Part shown: positions 52,545 through 61,976 of the stretch, piece after piece
Numbering within the stretch: position 1 is the stretch's first letter
How the letters are laid out: every line of letters begins with the position of its first letter
NCBI RefSeq assembly: GCF_900168025.1
Contig: NZ_FUYN01000003.1
Location: forward strand, 372,001-436,000
Direction: 5' to 3'
Origin: Acetoanaerobium noterae
GTDB lineage: Bacteria > Bacillota > Clostridia > Peptostreptococcales > Filifactoraceae
DNA: 64,000 nt
Translations under genes and position numbers: made by a program
The notes under the pieces: generated by a model
The model's input: the letters and a program-made list of their open reading frames with translations, nothing else
Told to the model about the DNA's origin: nothing
Database searches by the model: none

Positions 52545-54059
52545 TTATTCAGTTGGTGTTATATCATCTAGTTTAGTTGTTTCTATAAAGTTTTTAACCT
52601 CATTTATTTCCTTTGGTTCAGCATGCTCATGATTCATCACCATCTTGCCACCTACTATACCAGAAATTAATGCTTTCATATCTATTCCTAGTCCTTCTGT
52701 TAATCCTTCTGATATTTGAGTAGTTGAATTAATGATATCTTTTACCATTTTTGCTGAGTTGCCTTCACCATACATAGTTATCTTATCAATATTAGTTAAT
52801 GGTTCAGCTACATTTTTAGCTATATCAGGAAGTACGTTGAAGTACATTTCTAGTATTGCAGCTTCTTTCATTTTTTCCATTGCTATTGCTTTTTTCTCTA
52901 TACCTTCGGCTTCTGCTAGAGCTTTAGCTCTGATACCTTCCGCCTCTGCTAGCATAAAGGCTCTAACCCCCATGGCTTCTTCCTCTTTAGCTATTCTTTC
53001 AGCCTCTGCTTTTGCTTTTAATGCCTCTGCCTTTGCTATTTCTTCAAACTTATCTGCTTCTGCTTTTTTCTGTCTCTCAAATAGCTCTGCCTCTGCCTGC
53101 TGCTGTCTGGCGAATTTATCAGCCTCTGCCTTTTTCTTGATTTCAGCTTCTAGGGTTCTCTCTTTGATTTGGACATCTCTTTCTTTTATTACTATTTCCT
53201 TTTCTTGTCTTGCTAGGTTAGCATTTGCAGTGGTTATTTCTATAGTTTTACGTTGTTCCTCTTTTTGAATTTCATAAGCCGCATCAGCTTCTGCCTTTTT
53301 TGTATCCTCAGCTTTTTTAAGATCAGCTTTTCTCATAGCTAGCTCGTTATTTCTGACTGCTATTTCTCTTTCAGCATCTATACGAGCATCATTAGATTCC
53401 TTATCCGCTCTGGATTGAGCAATTTGGATATCTCTTTCAGCATCAGCCTTAGAAATTGCAGCTACTTTCTTGATTTTCATAGTGTTATCTATACCAAGGT
53501 CCTCGATGATACCACTTTTGTCTGAGAAGTTTTGTACATTAAAGGACACTATTTCTATTCCCATCTTTTGCATATCAGGTACTGCATTTTGCTGTACCTT
53601 AAGAGCAAATTCCTGTCTATTAGAAATCATGTTTTCAAGAGTCATAGTTCCAACTATTTCTCTGACATTACCCTCCAATACCTCTCCTACTATAGCTTGG
53701 ATATATGCTTCATCTTTATTTAAAAAGTTTTGAGCAGCTATTGGAAGCAAATCTTCATCAGAGCTTATCTTTACAGTTACTACTGCATCTACATTTACGT
53801 TTATGAATTCCTGTGTAGGCACAGATTCTTTAGTTTTTACATCGATTTTTATAACTTTTAATGTAAGTCTATCTTTTCTTTCAAAAAACGGAATCATCAC
53901 TGATGCTCTTCCTCTTATTATTCTAGGAGTACGCTTTACACCAGAAATAATAACTGCTTCATCAGGTGATGCCTTTACATAACCAACCACAATAATAATT
54001 ATTAAAAGTAATATTCCTACTCCTGGTACTGCAAATTTTAAAATGTCTTCAATTCCCAT
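52545..54059 (-). CDS. Flotillin-like SPFH membrane protein
   Basis: A 504-residue membrane-microdomain scaffold. An N-terminal transmembrane helix (about residues 10-30) is followed by the SPFH/PHB domain (AVIISGVKRTPRIIRGRASVMIPFFERKDRL) and a long coiled coil (about 190-400) rich in KAEAE, QQAEAE and similar repeats. Bacterial flotillins organise fluid membrane domains and affect signalling and protease assembly. The usual NfeD-type partner gene is not adjacent. ATG 54059 (MGIEDILKF) follows GGAGG; the in-frame ATG at 54071 lies at that site. A perfect 13-bp hairpin lies just upstream. Confidence 0.93.
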   Translation of the reverse strand: MGIEDILKFAVPGVGILLLIIIIVVGYVKASPDEAVIISGVKRTPRIIRGRASVMIPFFERKDRLTLKVIKIDVKTKESVPTQEFINVNVDAVVTVKISSDEDLLPIAAQNFLNKDEAYIQAIVGEVLEGNVREIVGTMTLENMISNRQEFALKVQQNAVPDMQKMGIEIVSFNVQNFSDKSGIIEDLGIDNTMKIKKVAAISKADAERDIQIAQSRADKESNDARIDAEREIAVRNNELAMRKADLKKAEDTKKAEADAAYEIQKEEQRKTIEITTANANLARQEKEIVIKERDVQIKERTLEAEIKKKAEADKFARQQQAEAELFERQKKAEADKFEEIAKAEALKAKAEAERIAKEEEAMGVRAFMLAEAEGIRAKALAEAEGIEKKAIAMEKMKEAAILEMYFNVLPDIAKNVAEPLTNIDKITMYGEGNSAKMVKDIINSTTQISEGLTEGLGIDMKALISGIVGGKMVMNHEHAEPKEINEVKNFIETTKLDDITPTE

Positions 54060-54077
54060 ATTCCCCTCCAAATTAGA

Positions 54078-54111
54078 TTAATTAAGTGATAGATAGGAAT
54101 CACTTAATTAA
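54078..54111. promoter_or_regulatory. Perfect 13-bp hairpin in the flotillin 5-prime region
   Basis: Arm TTAATTAAGTGAT, loop AGATAGGA, perfect complementary arm. It lies about 10 bases upstream of the flotillin ribosome site and could be an operator, an RNA stabiliser or a leader hairpin. Confidence 0.4.
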
Positions 54112-54289
54112 AAGATTAACATATATTGTATATTTATACTATTTCAAAAAAGTTAAATTCAATTACAGTTTTGTAAATCTTATGTAAGTATTTTGTAACT
54201 ATGAAAAGAATATACTTTGCTAGAATATAGTTGTAAGAAAAAATGTATCATCATACTCCTAAGATATGATAGATTTTGACCCTCAAACA

Positions 54290-54317
54290 GAAAACTCCGG
54301 TTGCCCTACCGGAGTTT
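54290..54317 (-). terminator. Rho-independent terminator of the HD-domain gene
   Basis: AAAACTCCGG, loop TTGCCCTA, CCGGAGTTTT: a perfect 10-bp stem 22 bases past the stop. Confidence 0.8.
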
Positions 54318-54338
54318 TCACTTTTTTGAATCATTATT

Positions 54339-54908
54339 CTATTTTAATCCAATTTCCTCAGCTACTTCTCTCATTCCTAGTATCGTATGCTCTATAGCAT
54401 AGTCTAATTCCCAGCCTAACATGTCTAGCCCTTGCTGGATTACTTCTCTGGATACTCCAGCTGCGAAGCTAGGAGATTTAAACTTTTTACGTACTGATTT
54501 AACCTCCATATCCATAACGCTCTTAGAAGGTCTCATAATTGCTGCTGCGTGGATAAGTCCACATAGCTCATCTATGCAAAATAACACTTTTTCCATCTGA
54601 TGCTCTGGCTTTATATCGGCAACCAGTCCATAGCCATGGCTTACTATTGATTTAATAATAGATTCATCTACATCTCTTTCTCTAAGTATTTCTTGAACCT
54701 TGATACAGTGCTCATCTGGGTATTTTTCATAATCTAAATCATGAAGAAGTCCAATAAGAGCCCATCTATCTACATCCTCTTCTCCTAATAAGTTGGCAAA
54801 ATATCTCATTACGCCTTCTACTTCAAGTGCGTGCTTTATAAGATATTCTGTTTGATTGTATTCATTAAGTAGCTCCCATGCTTGTGTTCTAGTAGGTATT
54901 ACTGACAT
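54339..54908 (-). CDS. HD-domain phosphohydrolase-like protein
   Basis: A 189-residue soluble protein with the HD signature: HALEVEGVMRYFA, then GLLHDLDYEKYPDEH (metal-binding HD) and a further conserved His in IVSHGYG. This pattern is the common HDIG-type hydrolase group without recognised substrate. Start ATG 54908 follows AAGGGGATG. Single gene with its own terminator, between the flotillin gene and the matrix operon; no evidence links it to either. Confidence 0.85.
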   Translation of the reverse strand: MSVIPTRTQAWELLNEYNQTEYLIKHALEVEGVMRYFANLLGEEDVDRWALIGLLHDLDYEKYPDEHCIKVQEILRERDVDESIIKSIVSHGYGLVADIKPEHQMEKVLFCIDELCGLIHAAAIMRPSKSVMDMEVKSVRKKFKSPSFAAGVSREVIQQGLDMLGWELDYAIEHTILGMREVAEEIGLK

Positions 54909-54972
54909 CTTTACATCCCCTTTGCTAAATTAATATTGTATACATTAACAGCCTTTTATCTATAATACTACT

Positions 54973-55001
54973 AAAAAAATACGCCTTCAAGAGAAGGCGC
55001 A
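54973..55001 (-). terminator. Rho-independent terminator of the fibre/matrix operon
   Basis: CGCCTTC, loop AAGA, GAAGGCG, with AT flanks; seven T follow on the minus strand. It closes the transcript that begins near 60510. Confidence 0.8.
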
Positions 55002-55024
55002 TTAGTTAATTTTATATTTTACTT

Positions 55025-55879
55025 TTATTTCTCGTCATCATCATCTTTTCTTCTTAGTATAACAACTCCTGCTCCAAGTAATACTGCTCCAGCACTATAG
55101 AAGAATATTGGTGCCATTCCTCCTGTTCTAGGTAGCTTAGGAACTGCTAGTGGAACTGGTTCTTCCTCAATAGCTTCCTCAACTTCTGGAACTGCTAGTG
55201 GAACTATTTCCTCAGGAATAATTTCCTCAGGTACTGGTTCTACTACTGCTAGAGGTACTGGTTCTTCTGGAACATCCTCTGGCTCATCTTCATCATCATC
55301 GTCATCATCTGGTGGTGGTGGAGGTGGTGGAGGTGGTGTATCAGGTATCTCTGCTCTAAAAGACCAAATTACTCCAGCCTCTTTTCCTTGATATTCATTT
55401 CCTAATTCTTCAGGTAATGAAACTTTTAAATTCATTATTTGAGATTCTCCAGGTTCAAAAAAACCTAAGCTCATTTCATCTTTTGCATACCCTTTTATAG
55501 AGGTCTGGTCTGTTTCTCCTCTATAAACAACTTCTAGCATCAACTGATCATATAAATCTGGAGATTGGATTTCGATTCCCATATCTCTTTTTGCTATCAG
55601 CCAAACTTGAAATCTTTGAGAATAACCATTTGTTATCTTAATAGTAGATCTTTCATCATTTGGTGTTATGTCACTATCGGTTCCATCTCCTGGTCCCATA
55701 TTACTAAGATCAAAAAACTTATCTCCAACAGGCTCAATTTTAAGTTGTCCTGTAGCATCACTACTAACTTCAATGTTATTTGCAAATGCTATTGAAGGCG
55801 ATTGCAAAATCAGTCCAGATACTATAAGAGCTAGCGAAAGAGCTATACTAGAGATTCCTATTGCAATTCTTTTATACAT
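55025..55879 (-). CDS. LPXTG-anchored surface protein with TasA/camelysin-like module
   Basis: A 284-residue exported protein. It has a signal peptide (about 1-34, ending IAFANN), a beta-rich domain (about 36-178) that shares the NEYQGKEAG segment with the two upstream fibre proteins (NEYQGAAL, EKYNGHTF), a poly-Pro run of nine followed by a poly-Asp/Glu spacer, and repeated VPLAVPEVEE-like units. The C-terminus is a classic sortase signal: LPRTG at residues 249-253, a hydrophobic helix and a charged RRKDDDDEK tail. It is likely the cell-wall anchor of the fibre. No sortase gene is in this window. Start ATG follows AAGGAGGGTAAC. Confidence 0.85.
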   Translation of the reverse strand: MYKRIAIGISSIALSLALIVSGLILQSPSIAFANNIEVSSDATGQLKIEPVGDKFFDLSNMGPGDGTDSDITPNDERSTIKITNGYSQRFQVWLIAKRDMGIEIQSPDLYDQLMLEVVYRGETDQTSIKGYAKDEMSLGFFEPGESQIMNLKVSLPEELGNEYQGKEAGVIWSFRAEIPDTPPPPPPPPPDDDDDDEDEPEDVPEEPVPLAVVEPVPEEIIPEEIVPLAVPEVEEAIEEEPVPLAVPKLPRTGGMAPIFFYSAGAVLLGAGVVILRRKDDDDEK

Positions 55880-55917
55880 GTTACCCTCCTTTCTAGGGTT
55901 TTATCTTTACCTATACC

Positions 55918-56472
55918 CTATGGTAAGGAAAGGATTTCAACCTCAGGCGGCAAACTTGACAAGCCCCAAACATCCATATATGCTCCATTTGTAGCTTGAA
56001 CTGCCTGTGAATAAGCCTTCAACATAAATGTGTGACCATTATATTTTTCATCTTTACTTAGCAATTTAACTGATAGGTTGAGTGGGGAAGTGGTAGCTCC
56101 GGCATTAAGCACATGTTTATAATAGTAATAGCCTCCGCTTAGTACCCAGTCGCTAGAATTGTTTGTTACCTGTACATTGTTTATATCTAGCGCTGTATCC
56201 GCTTGATCTTTTTGCCATACTCCCGCTACTCTTACTCTAATATATGCACGCTTATTGCCTGTATTTTTAATCAGTATCTCTTTTGGTGTGGTCTCTCCGG
56301 CCTGCCAATTTGTAGGCGGATTAAAGTTTTCACTTAAATCTATTACTACCGTACCCGCTGTAATATCCGGGCTGACCGCTGCAGAATCGCTGAAATATGC
56401 TGTAGTAATCCCTATAATCAGCGAGGCGGCGAAGATGCCTGTTAATAGTGGTATCATCCATTTTCGTTTCAT
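55918..56472 (-). CDS. TasA/camelysin-like SipW-dependent matrix protein (second subunit)
   Basis: A 184-residue exported protein. The signal region IFAASLIIGITTAYFSDSAAVS carries the AYFSD cleavage-site style of SipW-cognate signal peptides. Then DITAGTVVIDLSENF, IKNTGNKRAYIRVRVAGVW and KAYSQAVQATNG follow the TasA/CalY fold pattern. Such proteins assemble into biofilm fibres after SipW processing. ATG 56472 has GAGAGGGG 7 bases upstream; the in-frame GTG at 56478 is too close. Two genes of the same kind in tandem point to a major and a minor subunit. Confidence 0.82.
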   Translation of the reverse strand: MKRKWMIPLLTGIFAASLIIGITTAYFSDSAAVSPDITAGTVVIDLSENFNPPTNWQAGETTPKEILIKNTGNKRAYIRVRVAGVWQKDQADTALDINNVQVTNNSSDWVLSGGYYYYKHVLNAGATTSPLNLSVKLLSKDEKYNGHTFMLKAYSQAVQATNGAYMDVWGLSSLPPEVEILSLP

Positions 56473-56561
56473 CTTCACACCCCTCTCTATTAATATTAGT
56501 TTTTAAAGAAAATCTCATTTAATTTAACTTATAGCTTCTCAAAATCTAAATTACTATTATT

Positions 56562-57206
56562 TTAAGTTTCTGGTACTGTTTCAAATGGAGGATTAAGTTG
56601 ATCTACGTTTGCAGCTTGAACAGCTTGAACTTCAAATTCCATATCTAGTGCTGCGCCTTGATACTCATTTCCAGTTCCTGCACCATCAATAGTTACTATA
56701 AAAGGTACATTTTCAACATCTGCTAAATCATAAACTCCAAAATCTTCATCAGCTCCATTTAAGATACCATCAAGTAGGAAAACATATTTTCCATCAACCA
56801 TATCTTCTTGAAGTACCCAATGACTTCCTTCTACTCCTTCAAGTGTAAGATTTGTATTAGCTAATTCTCCAACCCATCCAGCACCTACTAATACTCTTAC
56901 GTAAGCTGCTTTGGTGCCTGTATAGCTGATCTTAAGCGCTCTATCATATCCACCTTGAGGAATTTCTCTGTCCTCATCAAACCCATGATAATATCCAGCA
57001 TCTTGAGGTTCTCCAAATTTAATGATGTCTCCAGGATTAACAATGTCTATATCTGTAGGATCAGTAATTCCTACTTCTACAGTACCTGCAGTAAATGTTG
57101 CAGCTACAGTTTGACTATCAGTAAACCACGCCATAGTTGCCCCAGCAATAAGAGCTACTAAAACCAACACAGAAGCTATACTCATTAGCATTTTTCTTTG
57201 TAACAT
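56562..57206 (-). CDS. TasA/camelysin-like SipW-dependent matrix protein (first subunit)
   Basis: A 214-residue exported protein with signal peptide VLVLVALIAGATMAWFTDSQ, in which the AWFTDS motif is the typical SipW-dependent cleavage site. The mature domain begins TFTAGTVEVGI and includes DRALKISYTGTKAAYVRVLVGAGWVG and GNEYQGAALDMEFEVQAVQAAN, the beta-sandwich pattern of TasA and camelysin. It follows sipW by 87 bases. Strong AAGGAGGGAAATATC ribosome site suggests high expression, fitting a fibre subunit. Confidence 0.88.
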   Translation of the reverse strand: MLQRKMLMSIASVLVLVALIAGATMAWFTDSQTVAATFTAGTVEVGITDPTDIDIVNPGDIIKFGEPQDAGYYHGFDEDREIPQGGYDRALKISYTGTKAAYVRVLVGAGWVGELANTNLTLEGVEGSHWVLQEDMVDGKYVFLLDGILNGADEDFGVYDLADVENVPFIVTIDGAGTGNEYQGAALDMEFEVQAVQAANVDQLNPPFETVPET

Positions 57207-57293
57207 GATATTTCCCTCCTTAAAGTGGAATTTAATTAATAAATATATCCGAACGATTAAATAACATAAGGTAAATAATTTAAATCACTAATC

Positions 57294-57860
57294 TTAAAAC
57301 TTAATTTCATGATTTTGAGCTTTTTTCTGCTTATCCAGCTCACTTGCATAACCTATCAGTTTAAATATTTCTATGAGAAGTAGTGCTATCGCGGGTATTA
57401 TCACTACTAAAAGCATACCTTGTTTAGTCTTTATAAACTCAGTCATATATCCAAGATATGGAATATCATACTGTACTCTTGCTATGATATTTTCTGGCTT
57501 AACTGGTTCTAAGTCGATTACATCATTTGCATCTCCCTTAGTTATAAAGCTAAGCTCTCCGTTTTCTTTAGATATTTGCTCTATTCTATGTGTTACAAGT
57601 GTAGTAGAATCATCTTTTGATTTAAATGTCACTACATCACCTATAACAAGGTCCTTAGGGGATACTCTTTTACTAATTACCAAACTTCCTGTTTGAATAT
57701 CTGGCTCCATACTACCGCTTTGAACTACATAGAGTCTGTATCCCATAATATCTGGTATACGACCTGCATTTTGAAGCATAGTATATACGAAAACTAAAGA
57801 TACTACTGTTACTATTATAAATATAGAGTTAAATAATATACTTGTTATCTTCTTTAGCAT
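57294..57860 (-). CDS. sipW: SipW-type (ER-type) signal peptidase I
   Basis: A 188-residue membrane protease with an N-terminal helix and a C-terminal helix. The catalytic serine lies in VVQSGSMEPDIQTGSLV. The second active-site residue is His in TLVTHRIEQI instead of the Lys of ordinary bacterial signal peptidases, which defines the SipW/ER type. SipW enzymes process TasA-like proteins encoded next to them, exactly the arrangement here. Later GDAND and RVQYDIPYLGYM match the family. The start MLKK at 57860 is chosen on AGGTG spacing; in-frame GTG 57869 and ATG 57866 overlap the site. Confidence 0.93.
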   Translation of the reverse strand: MLKKITSILFNSIFIIVTVVSLVFVYTMLQNAGRIPDIMGYRLYVVQSGSMEPDIQTGSLVISKRVSPKDLVIGDVVTFKSKDDSTTLVTHRIEQISKENGELSFITKGDANDVIDLEPVKPENIIARVQYDIPYLGYMTEFIKTKQGMLLVVIIPAIALLLIEIFKLIGYASELDKQKKAQNHEIKF

Positions 57861-57876
57861 CCCCATCACCTACCTT

Positions 57877-60510
57877 TTATGCTTTTGCTATTTCAATTTT
57901 CTTAGAATCAAAATTCATATCAGCTATTATTACTCCGCCTACATGGAAATAGTTCTTTTCTTCATCATCATCATAGAACCAACCAGTTTTTTTAGGTTCA
58001 TTTGTTACAGTGATGCTATCTTCAGGATTAGAATAGGTGATATTAACTGGAGCTGAAATTCCAACTAGCTTATAGTTATATGGCAAGTAGGCTTCAGTTG
58101 CAGTATACAAACCTTGCTTTAATCCCCAGAATTTGTGAGTTCCACCGTAAGTGAAGTGGTTAAAGTTAGTACTTGTTTGATTCAATAAATTACCTGAGAT
58201 ATTAATTTCAAATTCTTTAGGAAGTCCTGTGCCATTTATTGCTTTTATTATATTTAATCTTAGTACTGGTGGTACTGGAACCTTTGGCATAGGGAAATCC
58301 ATAGTTGAATTTATATTATTAGGATCCTTGTAACTAAGTGTAGCTGAAGCATTTGTATATACTGGGTTAAGCCCTGCATTAGGCTCATTAGTATATCCAA
58401 ATGGTCCTACTGTATCTAAAGAGCTCCAGTTAGATGGCCATGCAGCTGTAGGCCACATATCATCTATCACTTTAATCTGATAACTCATAGTTACAGTTTC
58501 TTCTCTGATATCTCCTATAGTCCAGTCAATCTTCTTGGTTGAAGGATTATATACAGCCGTACCCTTGCTAGCTGTAATACTACTTGTTATAACCTCGAAG
58601 TGGTCGTTGACTGGTATAGACATAAAATCTACTACCCCAGCATTTGTTGCTGCATATTGAAGTTTAGTAGCAATTGTTTGATATACTGGATTTAAATTGG
58701 CTGCGCTCATTGTTTCATAATATTTTTCACTATCATAATTTACAGCTAAGTTCATTGTATCTCTTGCTATAGCTAAAACTTCTGTTTCATCTTCATATAC
58801 ACCAAACAATCCTATATTAAATAAATTTCCACCTAATGTTGAATATAGACTTTGGCCTGCTGTATATCCAGCAATAGTATGGACATTATGATTTATTGGA
58901 TCTCCCGGTCCATAAAGATTACCATTGCTCGCAGTTGAAACTCCATCTGTCAAAAATACAACCGCTTTTACGGAATCTCTAGAACTCTCTATTTGGGATA
59001 TTTTTGTGTTAGCCAAGTTGTATCCTGCTTGAGTATTAGTCCCTCCCCCCGCAACAAGAGAGTTTATATTATTAGTTAAAGTAGTTTTATTATTAGTTAA
59101 TTCAGTTACAACTCTTGCATCATCTGAATCTCCATAACCACTTGCATATTGTGGACCATAAAATTCTATTACTCCTACTCTACTTCCAGGAACCTCATCA
59201 ATTATTTTTTTCGCAAATTCAATTGCTGCATCTTTTGCATAATATAGTGGTGTATGCGAATCCCCTGGTATTCTGTATCCCATACTTCCTGAAGTATCAA
59301 TTACAAGAAATACATCAATAGGTTTATCTGGAGGAGTCCCAGTAATTTGAAAATCTATCTGATATAATCTTTCTTCTAAATCTAATGTTTTAGCTGTTTT
59401 ATCTATTGATAGAAAATCATTCTCATAAGGATTTACAACAGATAATCCAAAGCTTCTCAGCATCGGTAATTCTTGATATTTAGATATATCTACAAAAATA
59501 TCTCCAGTTTCTTGTGATGCTTCAGCTAACTCAATAATTTCTGGCAATAAAGTTGCATCTCCGTTGACTACTGCAGTAGCAGTTTTGTTAATTTCACCGA
59601 CTGGTCCTGTACCATATACTCTTACAGTATTTGTAATCACAGGAGGCTCTTCAGGAGCTACCATTATTTCTTCTCCTGCTACCATTATAGGTTCAGGTTG
59701 TTTTACTTCAAAACTGCCAGTGAAAACTTTTGTTTCCCCAGTTAATAAATCAAACGTTTCTATAAGATTTATCATAGGGTCTTCTACTGTAAGTCCTGTC
59801 AAATCTCCACCTGAATTATTAGTAACTTCAATAGTGTAATTAATCGTTTCTCCAGGATTTACTTGATCCTTGTCAGCTGTTTTCGTAACAATAATTTCCT
59901 CACCAGGTATTGCGGTTATCGGTGGTATTATTACCCCTCCCCCTCCAATAACTGGAACTGTCGGATCAACTACAGGATCTACTGGTGGTGCATTTGGATC
60001 AACCGGTGGTGTGTTAGGATCTACTGGCGGTGCATTTGGGTCAACCGGCTCTTCTATTGGTGGTACATTTGGATCTACAGGCTCTTCAACTGGTTCCTCT
60101 ACTGGTGGAAGTTCTCCATCTACAGGTTCTTCTTCAGTTGGTGGGAGCTCTCCATCTACTGGTCCTTGAGGTGTTTCTTCATCTTCAATTACTTCTTCCC
60201 CATCTGGATTTTCGATATCACCATCAGGACTGTCTAAATCTTCTTCAGCTTGCGGTTCTCCTGGTGGCTCTTGTTCTTCTAAATTTTGCTCACCTTCTCC
60301 TTCTTGAGGTTCAATGTTTTGCTCCTCGTCCGATGCTTCTACTTGCGGGGCATCTTCGCTTTGTATATCTACTTCACCTTCCACTGAATCAGATGAAACA
60401 TCCTGAGACTCTACTTCTAACTGAGAGGCATAAATAAGAGCTGGATGGATATTTACAAAAGTAAGAGCAAAAATTAAGATAATGATTTGCCACAATTTTA
60501 TTTTCTTCAC
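57877..60510 (-). CDS. Large vWA/DUF11 surface protein with Pro-rich repeats, first gene of the fibre operon
   Basis: An 877-residue exported adhesin-like protein. It has a signal peptide (about 1-29, ending IYAS), an acidic Glu/Asp-rich region (30-115), PVDPNxPP repeats (115-185), a DUF11-like beta domain (about 204-315: IIVTKTADKDQVNPGETINYTIEVTNNSG), and a von Willebrand A domain (about 398-600) with intact MIDAS start DTSGS at 405-409 and VVFLTDG. A Cna-B-like domain follows (about 740-840: LRLNIIKAINGTGLPKEFEINISG). The C-terminus has no LPXTG signal, hydrophobic helix or other anchor, unlike most vWA pilin-type tips, so it may join the fibre non-covalently. GTG start follows AGGAGGTGAAACC. 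It lies 16 bases upstream of sipW. Confidence 0.86.
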   Translation of the reverse strand: MKKIKLWQIIILIFALTFVNIHPALIYASQLEVESQDVSSDSVEGEVDIQSEDAPQVEASDEEQNIEPQEGEGEQNLEEQEPPGEPQAEEDLDSPDGDIENPDGEEVIEDEETPQGPVDGELPPTEEEPVDGELPPVEEPVEEPVDPNVPPIEEPVDPNAPPVDPNTPPVDPNAPPVDPVVDPTVPVIGGGGVIIPPITAIPGEEIIVTKTADKDQVNPGETINYTIEVTNNSGGDLTGLTVEDPMINLIETFDLLTGETKVFTGSFEVKQPEPIMVAGEEIMVAPEEPPVITNTVRVYGTGPVGEINKTATAVVNGDATLLPEIIELAEASQETGDIFVDISKYQELPMLRSFGLSVVNPYENDFLSIDKTAKTLDLEERLYQIDFQITGTPPDKPIDVFLVIDTSGSMGYRIPGDSHTPLYYAKDAAIEFAKKIIDEVPGSRVGVIEFYGPQYASGYGDSDDARVVTELTNNKTTLTNNINSLVAGGGTNTQAGYNLANTKISQIESSRDSVKAVVFLTDGVSTASNGNLYGPGDPINHNVHTIAGYTAGQSLYSTLGGNLFNIGLFGVYEDETEVLAIARDTMNLAVNYDSEKYYETMSAANLNPVYQTIATKLQYAATNAGVVDFMSIPVNDHFEVITSSITASKGTAVYNPSTKKIDWTIGDIREETVTMSYQIKVIDDMWPTAAWPSNWSSLDTVGPFGYTNEPNAGLNPVYTNASATLSYKDPNNINSTMDFPMPKVPVPPVLRLNIIKAINGTGLPKEFEINISGNLLNQTSTNFNHFTYGGTHKFWGLKQGLYTATEAYLPYNYKLVGISAPVNITYSNPEDSITVTNEPKKTGWFYDDDEEKNYFHVGGVIIADMNFDSKKIEIAKA
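59956..60168 (-). repeat. In-frame tandem repeats encoding PVDPN-type proline-rich units
   Basis: Coding repeats of about 18-27 bases in the vWA gene: EEPVDPNVPP, EEPVDPNAPP, VDPNTPP, VDPNAPP. They form a stalk-like linker between the acidic region and the DUF11 domain. Repeat slippage would change stalk length while keeping frame when units are multiples of three. Confidence 0.8.
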
Positions 60511-60581
60511 GGTTTCACCTCCTCATATCTTCTAAAAGTTCTTATCTTACTTTTACCAAGCTAAAATTACATAGGATTTTT

Positions 60582-60625
60582 ATTTCAATTTGATTACAAT
60601 TTGTTTTCAGTTACATTTCAGTTAC
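60582..60625 (-). promoter_or_regulatory. Four contiguous 11-bp direct repeats, predicted SARP-type binding site upstream of the fibre operon
   Basis: On the plus strand the units are ATTTCAATTTG (60582-60592), ATTACAATTTG (60593-60603), TTTTCAGTTAC (60604-60614) and ATTTCAGTTAC (60615-60625), sharing the pattern T-T/A-T/A-CA-A/G-TT. The 11-bp period is one helical turn, the classic layout for SARP/BTAD activators that bind direct repeats near the -35. The block is 72-115 bases upstream of the vWA start and next to the BTAD regulator gene. The pairing with that regulator is inference. Confidence 0.6.
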
Positions 60626-60716
60626 GTGAAAACCTTTTTATTCATTCAATAAGAATCAACACTATTAAAACAACTAAAATGGCTCATAATTTTTGATAAG
60701 CTTGTTTTCCTTCCAA

Positions 60717-60742
60717 TAAAAAACTGCCCTAAAAGGCAGTCT
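60717..60742 (-). terminator. Rho-independent terminator of the BTAD regulator gene
   Basis: ACTGCC, loop CTAAAA, GGCAGT, then TTTTTTAT on the minus strand. It overlaps the stop codon and isolates the regulator from the fibre operon. Confidence 0.75.
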
Positions 60743-61976
60743 CATTGTAATTTTCATCAGTTGCTTGTATTGGTTTACAGCTAAGAGTAAATAATATTCT
60801 ATGCTTTTTCTTGACTTGATTTAATAAAAAGTTCATTCTTTGATTTATTCTTTTTATCATTTCTTCGCTACTATTAAACATCATAAAAGCAAACTGATTT
60901 TTATTTAGTTTTGTTATAACATCGTATTTTCTCATATATTTGTCTACTACCGGGCCTATATCCTCCACTATCTTTACAGACTCCTCTTCGCTTATTTCTC
61001 TTAAGTCATAGGCAGACACCGTTACTATCCCAACCATGGTTTTACCTATTTCTCTTTCTTTTTTTCGAAGCTCTAGTCTGTAAAGGTTAATAAAGAAATC
61101 TTTATCGCAAAAAAACACCCCATCTGACTGCTCTGCAAGCCGTATAGTTCTTTCTAAGGTAAAAAGATCAGTACCATACTCTGAGTTTTCTCTTTTTTGT
61201 ACTTTCTGATAGATTTCTTTCATTTTTTCTGAAGGCTTCATATTCATCTCAGTATAAAATCTAGAAGTAACATAGTTATAGTGGTTTAGAGCTTGATTAG
61301 CTTTATTTGATTTAAATAAGGCCTCGAGCAAATACTCATGAATTACTTCATCAAAAAAATTTATAGAAAGTGCAGATTCGCATTCATTGATTACTTCATC
61401 ATATCTAGCTTTTTTGGCTAGGTGTCCTATATATTGAGAAAAAAGCATTAGATACTGTCTTTTGTAATGTGTCCTGAGAGGGAATATCCAATCATAAAAT
61501 TCAGCGCCTTCAATATAATCTCCTCTATAAAGCTTAAGTGCTGTCTTTAGCTCTGATATTTTCTCAAAATTATCCTCTAATTCCAGTGGATTTAGGGAAA
61601 ATTTACAAACGTAATCTTCAAATATTTCTACATCTAAAATATACTCTTTCTCTAAATTAAATACGTAATTTCCAGCTACAAAATCAAGTCTCATTACTTC
61701 ACATTCAAGCTTCGAATTTATATCCTTTATTATTTTTCTTAGTCTGTGAACTTGGCTTCTTAGTGCATTGTTATAGTCTGTATAGTCGTATAGTTTAAAA
61801 TTTGCTTCAATTATTCTGTTTACAGGGATTTTTTTACCTCTGTTAGATATAAAATATTTCAATAGCGAAAGTGCTTTTTGACTTTTTCCAAACTGAGTCA
61901 AAAGGGATTCTCCATCTATTAAGATATCAAAGCTACCGAAGGTGAGGATTTCTAATCTACCATTATTTAGGTCCAT
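60729..61976 (-). CDS. SARP/BTAD-like transcriptional activator with degenerate GGDEF-like C-terminal domain
   Basis: A 415-residue regulator. Residues about 6-110 form an OmpR-type winged helix as in AfsR/DnrI proteins (ILTFGSFDILIDGESLL, then NNALRSQVHRLRKIIKD as recognition region). About 115-270 is the bacterial transcriptional activation domain, with helical repeats (LEALFKSNKANQALNHYNYV). About 290-405 resembles a GGDEF fold (KTMVGIVTVSAYDLREIS, RKYDVITKLNKNQFAFMMF), but the GGDEF motif reads NKNQF, so it cannot make c-di-GMP; it may bind a ligand or only dimerise. It sits directly upstream of the fibre operon and is the natural candidate to activate it. ATG 61976 follows AAGGGAGAG. Confidence 0.82.
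   Translation of the reverse strand: MDLNNGRLEILTFGSFDILIDGESLLTQFGKSQKALSLLKYFISNRGKKIPVNRIIEANFKLYDYTDYNNALRSQVHRLRKIIKDINSKLECEVMRLDFVAGNYVFNLEKEYILDVEIFEDYVCKFSLNPLELEDNFEKISELKTALKLYRGDYIEGAEFYDWIFPLRTHYKRQYLMLFSQYIGHLAKKARYDEVINECESALSINFFDEVIHEYLLEALFKSNKANQALNHYNYVTSRFYTEMNMKPSEKMKEIYQKVQKRENSEYGTDLFTLERTIRLAEQSDGVFFCDKDFFINLYRLELRKKEREIGKTMVGIVTVSAYDLREISEEESVKIVEDIGPVVDKYMRKYDVITKLNKNQFAFMMFNSSEEMIKRINQRMNFLLNQVKKKHRILFTLSCKPIQATDENYNETAF

Follow-up and report, generated by a model that had tools for sequence, protein, structure and literature searches.

We analyzed a 64,000-nt stretch of the Acetoanaerobium noterae genome (RefSeq assembly GCF_900168025.1, contig NZ_FUYN01000003.1, positions 372,001 to 436,000; hereafter the window), which contains a predicted surface fibre system encoded by five co-directional minus-strand genes. 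These genes run from position 60510 down to 55025 and are separated by intergenic gaps of 7, 87, 83 and 38 nt. The first one (57877–60510) codes for a protein of 877 amino acids (aa), here called the cap, with a Sec signal (by eye), an acidic and proline-rich region, a DUF11 domain, a von Willebrand factor A (vWA) domain, a Cna-B domain and a C-terminal tail. It is followed by SipW (57294–57869, 191 aa), a signal peptidase of the endoplasmic reticulum (ER) type, by TasA-like subunit A (56562–57206, 214 aa), which has a SipW-type signal and an NEYQG segment, and by TasA-like subunit B (55918–56478, 186 aa), which is close to the BsaA family. The last gene (55025–55879, 284 aa) encodes an LPXTG wall anchor, here called the base, with a Sec signal (by eye), a TasA fold without donor strand, a linker rich in Pro, Asp and Glu, and an LPRTG motif. 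SipW and subunit B are listed with GTG starts, and ATG codons occur a few codons downstream. Open reading frames (ORFs) and domain matches thus bear out the first-pass annotation of the window, which had described a vWA protein, SipW, two TasA-like proteins and an LPXTG protein in one tight array. We have little doubt that the five genes form a surface fibre operon of the SipW/TasA type, and our findings make it fairly probable that its product is a TasA-type donor-strand fibre with defined ends, carrying the vWA adhesin at the tip and a wall-anchored base, under the control of a BTAD regulator.

The peptidase matches TIGR02228 with 132.1 bits (cut-off 51.85) and the Bacillus SipW model with 147.2 bits, which is under that model's cut-off of 190. 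Its residues S53 and H94, which we take to be catalytic, are invariant in 11 of 11 aligned sequences. Genome-wide searches covered the 2.81 Mb, 19-contig assembly carrying the window; here the SipW family model matches once, in line with the earlier statement that no other ER-type signal peptidase was seen. The SipW-type signal TIGR04088 (cut-off 19) is found in subunit B (34.4 bits) and subunit A (32.8 bits) and nowhere else in the genome. Since the one SipW and both SipW-type signals lie in the operon, the peptidase has these two adjoining proteins as its predicted substrates, within the reach of the family model. Subunit A matches Peptidase_M73 (E 3.8e-13) and shows no match to the BsaA family TIGR04090, for which subunit B scores 59.3 bits, just below the cut-off of 60. 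A profile of 10 subunits aligns with the TasA fibre 8aur at E 1.7e-4, over the N-terminal 49 positions only. The NEYQG-like segment, previously ascribed to three proteins, is exact in subunit A and in the base; subunit B has EKYNG instead. Third-position GC is 0.36 in the gene of subunit B versus 0.14–0.15 in those of subunit A and the base, and B is perhaps a later arrival.

Right behind the expected SipW cut the subunits start with WFTD.....N.FTAG. According to the available text of PMC9674648, the donor strand of Bacillus subtilis TasA spans residues 28–38 and the contact residues are F29, I32 and F39; the N-terminus of TapA is similar. By this likeness we predict donor segments in subunit A (WFTDSQTVAATFTAG, 57084–57128, directly after the cut, whose position is inferred from TasA) and in subunit B (YFSDSAAVSPDITAG, 56353–56397).

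A similar segment was observed at the C-terminal end of the cap. The tail there (WFYDDDEEKNYFHVG; donor-strand-like tail WFYDDDEEKNYFHVGG, 57934–57981, cap aa 844–859) resembles the mature N-terminus exposed by SipW on TasA-like subunits. Tails of the form WF.D.....N.F behind a Cna-B domain were found in proteins upstream of SipW in the window (WFYDDDEEKNYFHV) and at the loci L095 (WFYDEDEVINRFNV), L135 (WFRDEDEKNNFFTV), L182 (WFRDETEADNYFTV), L178 (WFYDDDRKDNHFTV), L162 (WFDDDDNKDNIFKM) and L168 (WFRDWDEEENTFYL), with an acidic extension beyond the tail in L135, L182 and L168. The spacing from F(+2) to F(+12) of the tail equals that of TasA F29 to F39, two of the three donor contacts named in the available text of PMC9674648. 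For a quantitative comparison we parsed the N-termini of 85 subunits (142 subunit-like ORFs were found overall). An ungapped donor matrix was built from 69 of them, in which F stands at mature position 12 (16 cases) or 13 (53 cases); the other 16 have F at neither position and were set aside. This matrix was run over the C-terminal 70 residues of 1515 ORFs that are not subunits and encode at least 150 aa; since overlapping frames are among them, not every one is a real gene. Ranks 1–7 went to the seven caps, with 23.5 bits for the window and 13.0 bits for the best non-cap, and for each of the seven 0 of 2000 shuffles reached the score of the tail. When the matrix was made without any subunit from these seven loci (76 donors remaining), six cap tails, including that of the window, still outscored all 1508 non-cap tails, and L162 came second. 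The held-out tail of L226 ranked 2 of 1516. Strict WF.[DN]...F tails were confined to proteins directly before SipW (8 matches in 2771 ORFs, from six distinct loci).

In a wider group of caps the ranks were 8 (L221), 10 (L224), 11 (L223), 25 (L220), 33 (L222 and L227) and 38 (L225); the scored segments of L220 and L225 are not their WLNG tails, and no SipW was seen in the stretches of L222 and L227. By this matrix the WF group therefore shows a strong likeness and the WL group a weak one or none; WL tails were recognized by eye only. As far as sequence likeness can tell, the vWA tail probably serves as a donor strand. We also considered that SipW might cut a second time at the tail, and rejected this, as the preceding hydrophobic segment is absent (by eye). 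A donor-like segment was also seen near the C-terminus of a protein located after SipW in L158 (4503–5159; RFSDEEILQNQVTAG, 10.9 bits).

The cap carries VWA_2 (E 6.7e-13), DUF11 (E 5.5e-9) and SpaA/Cna-B (E 0.0083, under its cut-off) domains; a sequence search of the PDB with this protein gave no match. The metal ion-dependent adhesion site (MIDAS) residues DxSxS..T..D of the vWA domain (D405, S407, S409, T491 and D522) are invariant in an alignment of four sequences. In the Cna-B domain (57997–58263, aa 750–838) module residues K7, E57 and N88, presumably the isopeptide triad, are invariant in 6 of 6 aligned rows. We folded Cna-B plus tail as one module (6 rows) and obtained a mean predicted local distance difference test (pLDDT) value of 72.5. 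Residues 1–90 adopt a Cna-B fold closest to PitA (Z 10.3, root mean square deviation (rmsd) 2.1, 86 aligned), and past residue 90 the block-mean confidence drops to 57, 46, 44 and 42. In this model the tail lies outside the confident Cna-B part, which does not in itself show a free donor; had the model built the tail into the Cna-B fold as one of its strands, this would have counted against the donor idea.

The proteins of L178 and L162 and both proteins of L101 align to the window cap over Cna-B and tail only, outside the vWA head, and carry other heads. A profile of nine such modules gave six strong matches (E < 1e-33, five genomes) in 391 genomes of the class, five of which are query members (the window, L095, L178 and both L101 proteins), so that genome G417 contributes the sole new one. 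The weaker matches that we inspected are Cna-B-type domains, some with WL-type tails ahead of TasA-like genes. In L218, L219, L220, L221, L225, L098, L101 and L167 the cap is directly followed by a TasA-like gene and not by SipW; this subunit may be a tip adaptor.

At the other end of the operon, the base combines a TasA-fold domain (55340–55780, aa 34–180) with LPRTG, a membrane span and a charged tail (55028–55135). The latter match TIGR01167 with 19.5 bits (cut-off 15.9), and Pfam Gram_pos_anchor gives 16.8, below its cut-off of 20. In a profile comparison the base aligns with the subunits (probability 97.6, E 4.7e-12), NEYQG on NEYQG. Its domain was folded from 31 rows with a pLDDT of 87.1 and a predicted template modelling score (pTM) of 0.79. 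VIA-align placed the TasA fibre 8aur first (Z 9.9, rmsd 2.3, 127 aligned, model residues 10–147 on TasA 43–234), followed by TasA monomers (Z 7.9 and 7.8), an archaeal bundling pilin (7.3) and chaperone-usher pilins (at most 7.0). With Foldseek the archaeal bundling pilin came first and TasA was not among the 50 matches listed, and a PDB sequence search with the anchor profile reached TasA only at E 0.11, amid unrelated matches. The structural match to TasA begins past the donor strand. Likewise, the first 110 residues yielded a donor score of 13 bits or more in none of 42 bases, versus 121 of 142 subunits, a count that includes the 69 matrix sources. Among 42 base-like proteins checked for the sorting motif (a set that differs from the former by one, as L096 is in the scored set and L115, a copy of L099, is not), 32 fit a loose LPXTG pattern and seven have a variant ending (PKTG, VKTG, LPRTA and PPTSG, among others). 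Of the remaining three, one is truncated where its contig stops, and L149 and L158, the most divergent of the set, have no LPXTG-type pattern. Family search placed a sortase gene near the base in L100, L168 and L098, and a motif added L102, L116 and L146, but not the window; in L226 and in L228 (the contig of L178) the anchor is followed by RadC and not by a sortase. In the A. noterae genome, the single sortase scores best on the class C model (126.7, below the cut-off of 160), and two further proteins with LPXTG-type ends resembling that of the anchor were found on contig C2. Taken together, the LPXTG protein is quite likely the base of the fibre.

We next looked for the system in other genomes. 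No SipW match was found in the one genome of the same genus. Of nine genomes of the same family, three lack SipW and six show partial matches in ORFs of 399–463 aa, which are not SipW-sized. Other families of the class do have the system. The five genes of the window occur in the same order in G417 (L226), and G076 (L095) carries, in order, BTAD (in two ORF pieces), a vWA cap, SipW, one TasA-like gene and an LPXTG base. Cap, SipW, one TasA-like gene and base are found in L168, where the cap is split over two ORFs, and in L182, and L178 has two TasA-like genes and a cap without vWA head. This recurrence in several clostridial genomes answers the gene-order check proposed for the window; together with the TasA-fold model of the anchor and the donor-like vWA tail it supports the reading of the operon as tip, shaft and anchor. 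The first-pass annotation had covered neither the donor-like tail nor the BTAD regulator nor the bsa operon of Clostridium perfringens as a precedent.

Among the SipW loci from named genomes (best 80 of 542 confirmed stretches), a TasA-like gene lies near SipW in 55 and a base-like gene in 31; of the 52 loci with at least 5 kb downstream, 27 have a base-like gene. We also classified the gene directly upstream of SipW in 86 loci, which hold one contig twice (L099 = L115): it encodes a C-tail donor in 7, an N-terminal (TapA-like) donor in 6, both in none, a subunit-like protein in 12 and a base-like protein in one, and it could not be judged in 25. C-tail and N-terminal donors were not seen together in this position, and two ways of offering the first strand may exist. 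The TapA-like genes that replace the C-tail cap directly before SipW belong to L131, L134, L138, L146, L148 and L170, from Clostridia-type metagenome-assembled genomes (MAGs) and Paenibacillus. In L111, L147, L100 and L102 small proteins before SipW carry C-terminal repeated V.[ED][DS]VY-type motifs, e.g. VPESIYGNIPESVPESVYEH (by eye). SipW-like domains, sometimes paired, were also seen within ORFs of 470–760 aa in L117, L118, L125, L129 and others, from Syntrophomonadaceae and other MAGs.

To see whether caps and subunits vary together, we compared cap tails with the donors of their own loci. With hand-registered motifs from 18 caps we obtained p 0.0057 for the best donor and 0/100000 for the first donor, and with one cap per family (15 caps) p 0.016 and 4e-5; the donor lists behind these values were compiled by hand and are incomplete for some loci, the L226 donors are misordered, and relatedness was not removed. 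L167, L223, L222, L227, L103, L104 and L171 were left out, having no clear motif or locus. The F12 register occurs 7:2 in cap loci versus 9:51 elsewhere (p 0.0003, ignoring relatedness), and F or L at position 2 gave p 0.0006 in a table filled by eye, again ignoring relatedness.

Upstream of the cap gene lies a BTAD (SARP-like, i.e. resembling Streptomyces antibiotic regulatory proteins) regulator (60729–61976, minus strand, 415 aa) consisting of a winged helix, BTAD and a degenerate GGDEF-like C-terminus. BTAD is well supported (E 2.3e-17, 64.1 bits, cut-off 22.1); Trans_reg_C for the winged helix (24.5 bits, cut-off 26.2) and GGDEF (E 0.032) stay below their cut-offs. A BTAD homologue is found upstream in 13 of 23 anchor-bearing versus 7 of 29 anchor-less loci (all with at least 3 kb upstream), and the BTAD protein is likely to regulate the operon. 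The interval from the BTAD gene to the operon holds a tandem array of four 11-bp units, GTAACTGAAAT GTAACTGAAAA CAAATTGTAAT CAAATTGAAAT (60582–60625, minus strand), a candidate operator, with a TATGTAAT box 8 nt beyond the array. SARP and PhoB-type regulators have 11-bp direct repeats at their target promoters. Just downstream of 11 of 24 BTAD genes we observed 11-bp tandem repeats (p ≤ 0.05, Markov shuffles), exact 8-mer repeats of this period are absent from L095, L226 and L221, and a strict repeat motif matched three times in 3.42 Mb (the window, L108 and L111) versus a hand estimate of about 0.8. We regard the repeats as a lead to a possible BTAD operator.

The candidate promoter block that had been proposed ahead of the operon did not hold up: the scan lists no sigma-70-like minus-strand promoter within 60510–60729, and promoter-like sites across the region number 32 versus a shuffled mean of 30.0. 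The single terminator claimed behind the operon is there, as an intrinsic terminator-like hairpin (54978–55003), the sole minus-strand one listed within 54000–61500. A further terminator-like hairpin, ACTGCC-TTTTAG-GGCAGT followed by TTTTTT (60717–60740, minus strand), overlaps the BTAD stop codon; it was seen by eye and is absent from the terminator scan list.

From the genes, their order and families, the fold model of the anchor and the likeness of the tail we infer polymerization, polarity, adhesion, anchoring and regulation as follows. SipW would cut both TasA-like proteins and expose an N-terminal WF.D-type donor strand; the signal family is matched and the cut is predicted. The vWA protein would leave the cell by an ordinary Sec signal, with its tail serving as a built-in copy of the donor strand, which, judged by its likeness, may fill the groove of the first subunit and start the chain. 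The N-terminal strand of each subunit would then fill the groove of the next one. Having a TasA fold and no donor strand, the LPXTG protein could accept the last strand and so end the chain, and the single, unlinked sortase of the genome would join it to the wall. The product would be a wall-anchored fibre with the vWA adhesin at its tip and the BTAD regulator in control. We lean slightly towards this full polarity scheme, with a donor-only tip, a shaft of donor and groove, and a groove-only wall-anchored base. Our confidence is equally cautious, a little on the favourable side, for its extension: a polarity code in which heads are swapped on a constant Cna-B and tail module, as a clostridial display platform and an alternative to TapA-type nucleation.

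Several observations weigh against this proposal. The likeness that would make the tail a donor spans 15 residues and is thus short, and in 35 of the 86 SipW loci the upstream gene shows neither donor type by the thresholds used. The L101 caps rank 44 and 394, and 206 and 983 of 2000 shuffles reach their scores; L218 and L219 rank 57 and 550; L098, L103, L104, L167, L171 and L175 stay at or below 7.7 bits anywhere in the last 300 residues. Among these, L171 (Clostridium minihomine; L171:6952–9960) has the order vWA, SipW, Tas, Tas, base and no tail by matrix (best 7.1 bits). By eye, YFTHTDLKSNAIQIT behind its Cna-B-like end resembles WFTDSKEVANTVTFG of its subunits, with a matrix score of 1.1 bits. 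A donor hidden Markov model (HMM) reached at best E 0.028 on single tails, the window tail was not among the matches listed, and the best reversed control (12.1 bits) exceeded the best true tail (11.0 bits), for which reason we did not rely on the HMM and used the ungapped matrix instead. The co-variation test was also run blind, on 12-mers from 23 caps, and came out negative (p 0.22 and 0.23, or 0.33 and 0.66 when restricted to non-WF caps); this version truncates the tails of L182 and L168, and the donor parser misplaces a few loci (L098, L104). Repeated with 75-residue tails it remained negative (p 0.18 and 0.11). Because L171 and the repeated blind test were unhelpful, we slightly lowered our confidence in the donor/groove scheme and overall. 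Furthermore, the sole sortase match of the genome lies on another contig, unlinked, with none in the operon, and vWA relatives in L066 and L068 bear anchors of their own, the one in G019 (L068, L106) adjoining a weak SipW-like ORF (E 0.003).

Other explanations share part of this evidence. The tail could be a TapA-like assembly aid: as a chaperone or nucleator, the vWA protein would supply the first strand without remaining at the tip, its adhesin role being separate. TapA, the best studied donor of a first strand, provides it from its N-terminus and presumably does not remain in the filament after initiation (PMC10151520, available text), a further point against a permanent tip. C-tail caps and N-donor TapA-like proteins also hold the same gene position and were not seen together (7 and 6 of 86 loci). 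However, the large vWA/Cna-B head, its intact MIDAS residues and the varied heads on one module suggest an adhesin rather than a chaperone design, and we consider a departing cap unlikely. Somewhat less probable still is a fibre shed into the biofilm matrix, like those of B. subtilis, Bacillus cereus and Clostridium perfringens, with the LPXTG TasA-fold protein as a separate wall protein merely touching the fibre. According to the available texts, BsaA of C. perfringens is mainly extracellular and polymerizes without the neighbouring sortase SrtB (PMC7395162), and TasA/CalY of B. cereus is described as sortase-independent (PMC13082335). Yet in the compared loci the anchor follows the subunits, its model has a TasA fold and it lacks a donor strand; moreover, a base lies near SipW in 31 of 80 loci (27 of 52 with at least 5 kb downstream) and a sortase adjoins it in L100, L168 and L098. 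That unrelated surface proteins were grouped by chance or co-regulation, with the WF.D tail as part of the Cna-B stalk, would agree with the shortness of the motif and with the anchored vWA relatives of L066 and L068, but the gene order is kept across families, the tail lies outside the confident Cna-B model and strict tails occur only before SipW, which makes this explanation very improbable.

How TasA-type fibres start, end and stay on the cell is unsettled, and the parts list of the window proposes an answer for each end. The kind of system itself is already known, because BsaA is the nearest NCBIfam family of subunit B and the C. perfringens operon forms filaments. A base with TasA fold and wall anchor, a donor-like tail at the C-terminus and heads that can be exchanged may be new; we found no description of them in a literature search mostly without subscription papers and bioRxiv preprints. 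If the proposal is true, the 15-residue tail would be a handle for finding tip adhesins in uncultured Clostridia.

Among studied systems, sipW-bsaABCRSD of C. perfringens, which makes the BsaA pellicle fibre, comes nearest. It shares the clostridial SipW and a SipW-dependent, filament-forming matrix protein (subunit B reaches 59.3 of the 60 bits required for BsaA). It makes filaments, SipW is needed for extracellular BsaA, and the adjacent srtB is dispensable for polymerization; the available text of PMC7395162 mentions neither a vWA cap nor an LPXTG base (bsaB, C and D encode putative secreted proteins, compared by description only), and where the window has a BTAD regulator, that operon has the two-component system BsaRS. 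The tapA-sipW-tasA operon of B. subtilis shares SipW, the predicted TasA fold and N-terminal donor strand, and an accessory protein proposed to give the first strand (PMC9674648 and PMC10151520, available texts). TapA, however, is cut by SipW and has an N-terminal donor, whereas the window has a C-terminal donor-like tail on a large protein with an ordinary signal: the vWA protein scores -4.7 at its N-terminus and 23.5 at its C-terminus, and TIGR04088 is found only in the two subunits. To our knowledge, the B. subtilis operon has no LPXTG base. Chaperone-usher pili (type 1, P, CFA/I) are alike in their tip adhesin, donor-strand shaft and chain end, and the base model matches their pilin domains (Z about 6–7), but they are Gram-negative and need a chaperone and an usher. 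Their adhesin accepts a strand, whereas that of the window would donate one. Sortase-assembled Gram-positive pili share the vWA and Cna-B adhesin design (PitA is the top Cna-B match) and LPXTG at the wall. Such a pilus was rejected for the window, as the operon has no sortase and only the base among the five proteins has an LPXTG match; in contrast to these pili, the shaft would be held by non-covalent donor strands. The TasA-CalY-CapP system of B. cereus shares two TasA-like subunits and an accessory protein, but CapP has a DUF4047 domain and repeats, and the system is described as sortase-independent (PMC13082335, available text). If our proposal is true, the operon would join donor-strand fibres to sortase anchoring, two routes kept separate in that description.

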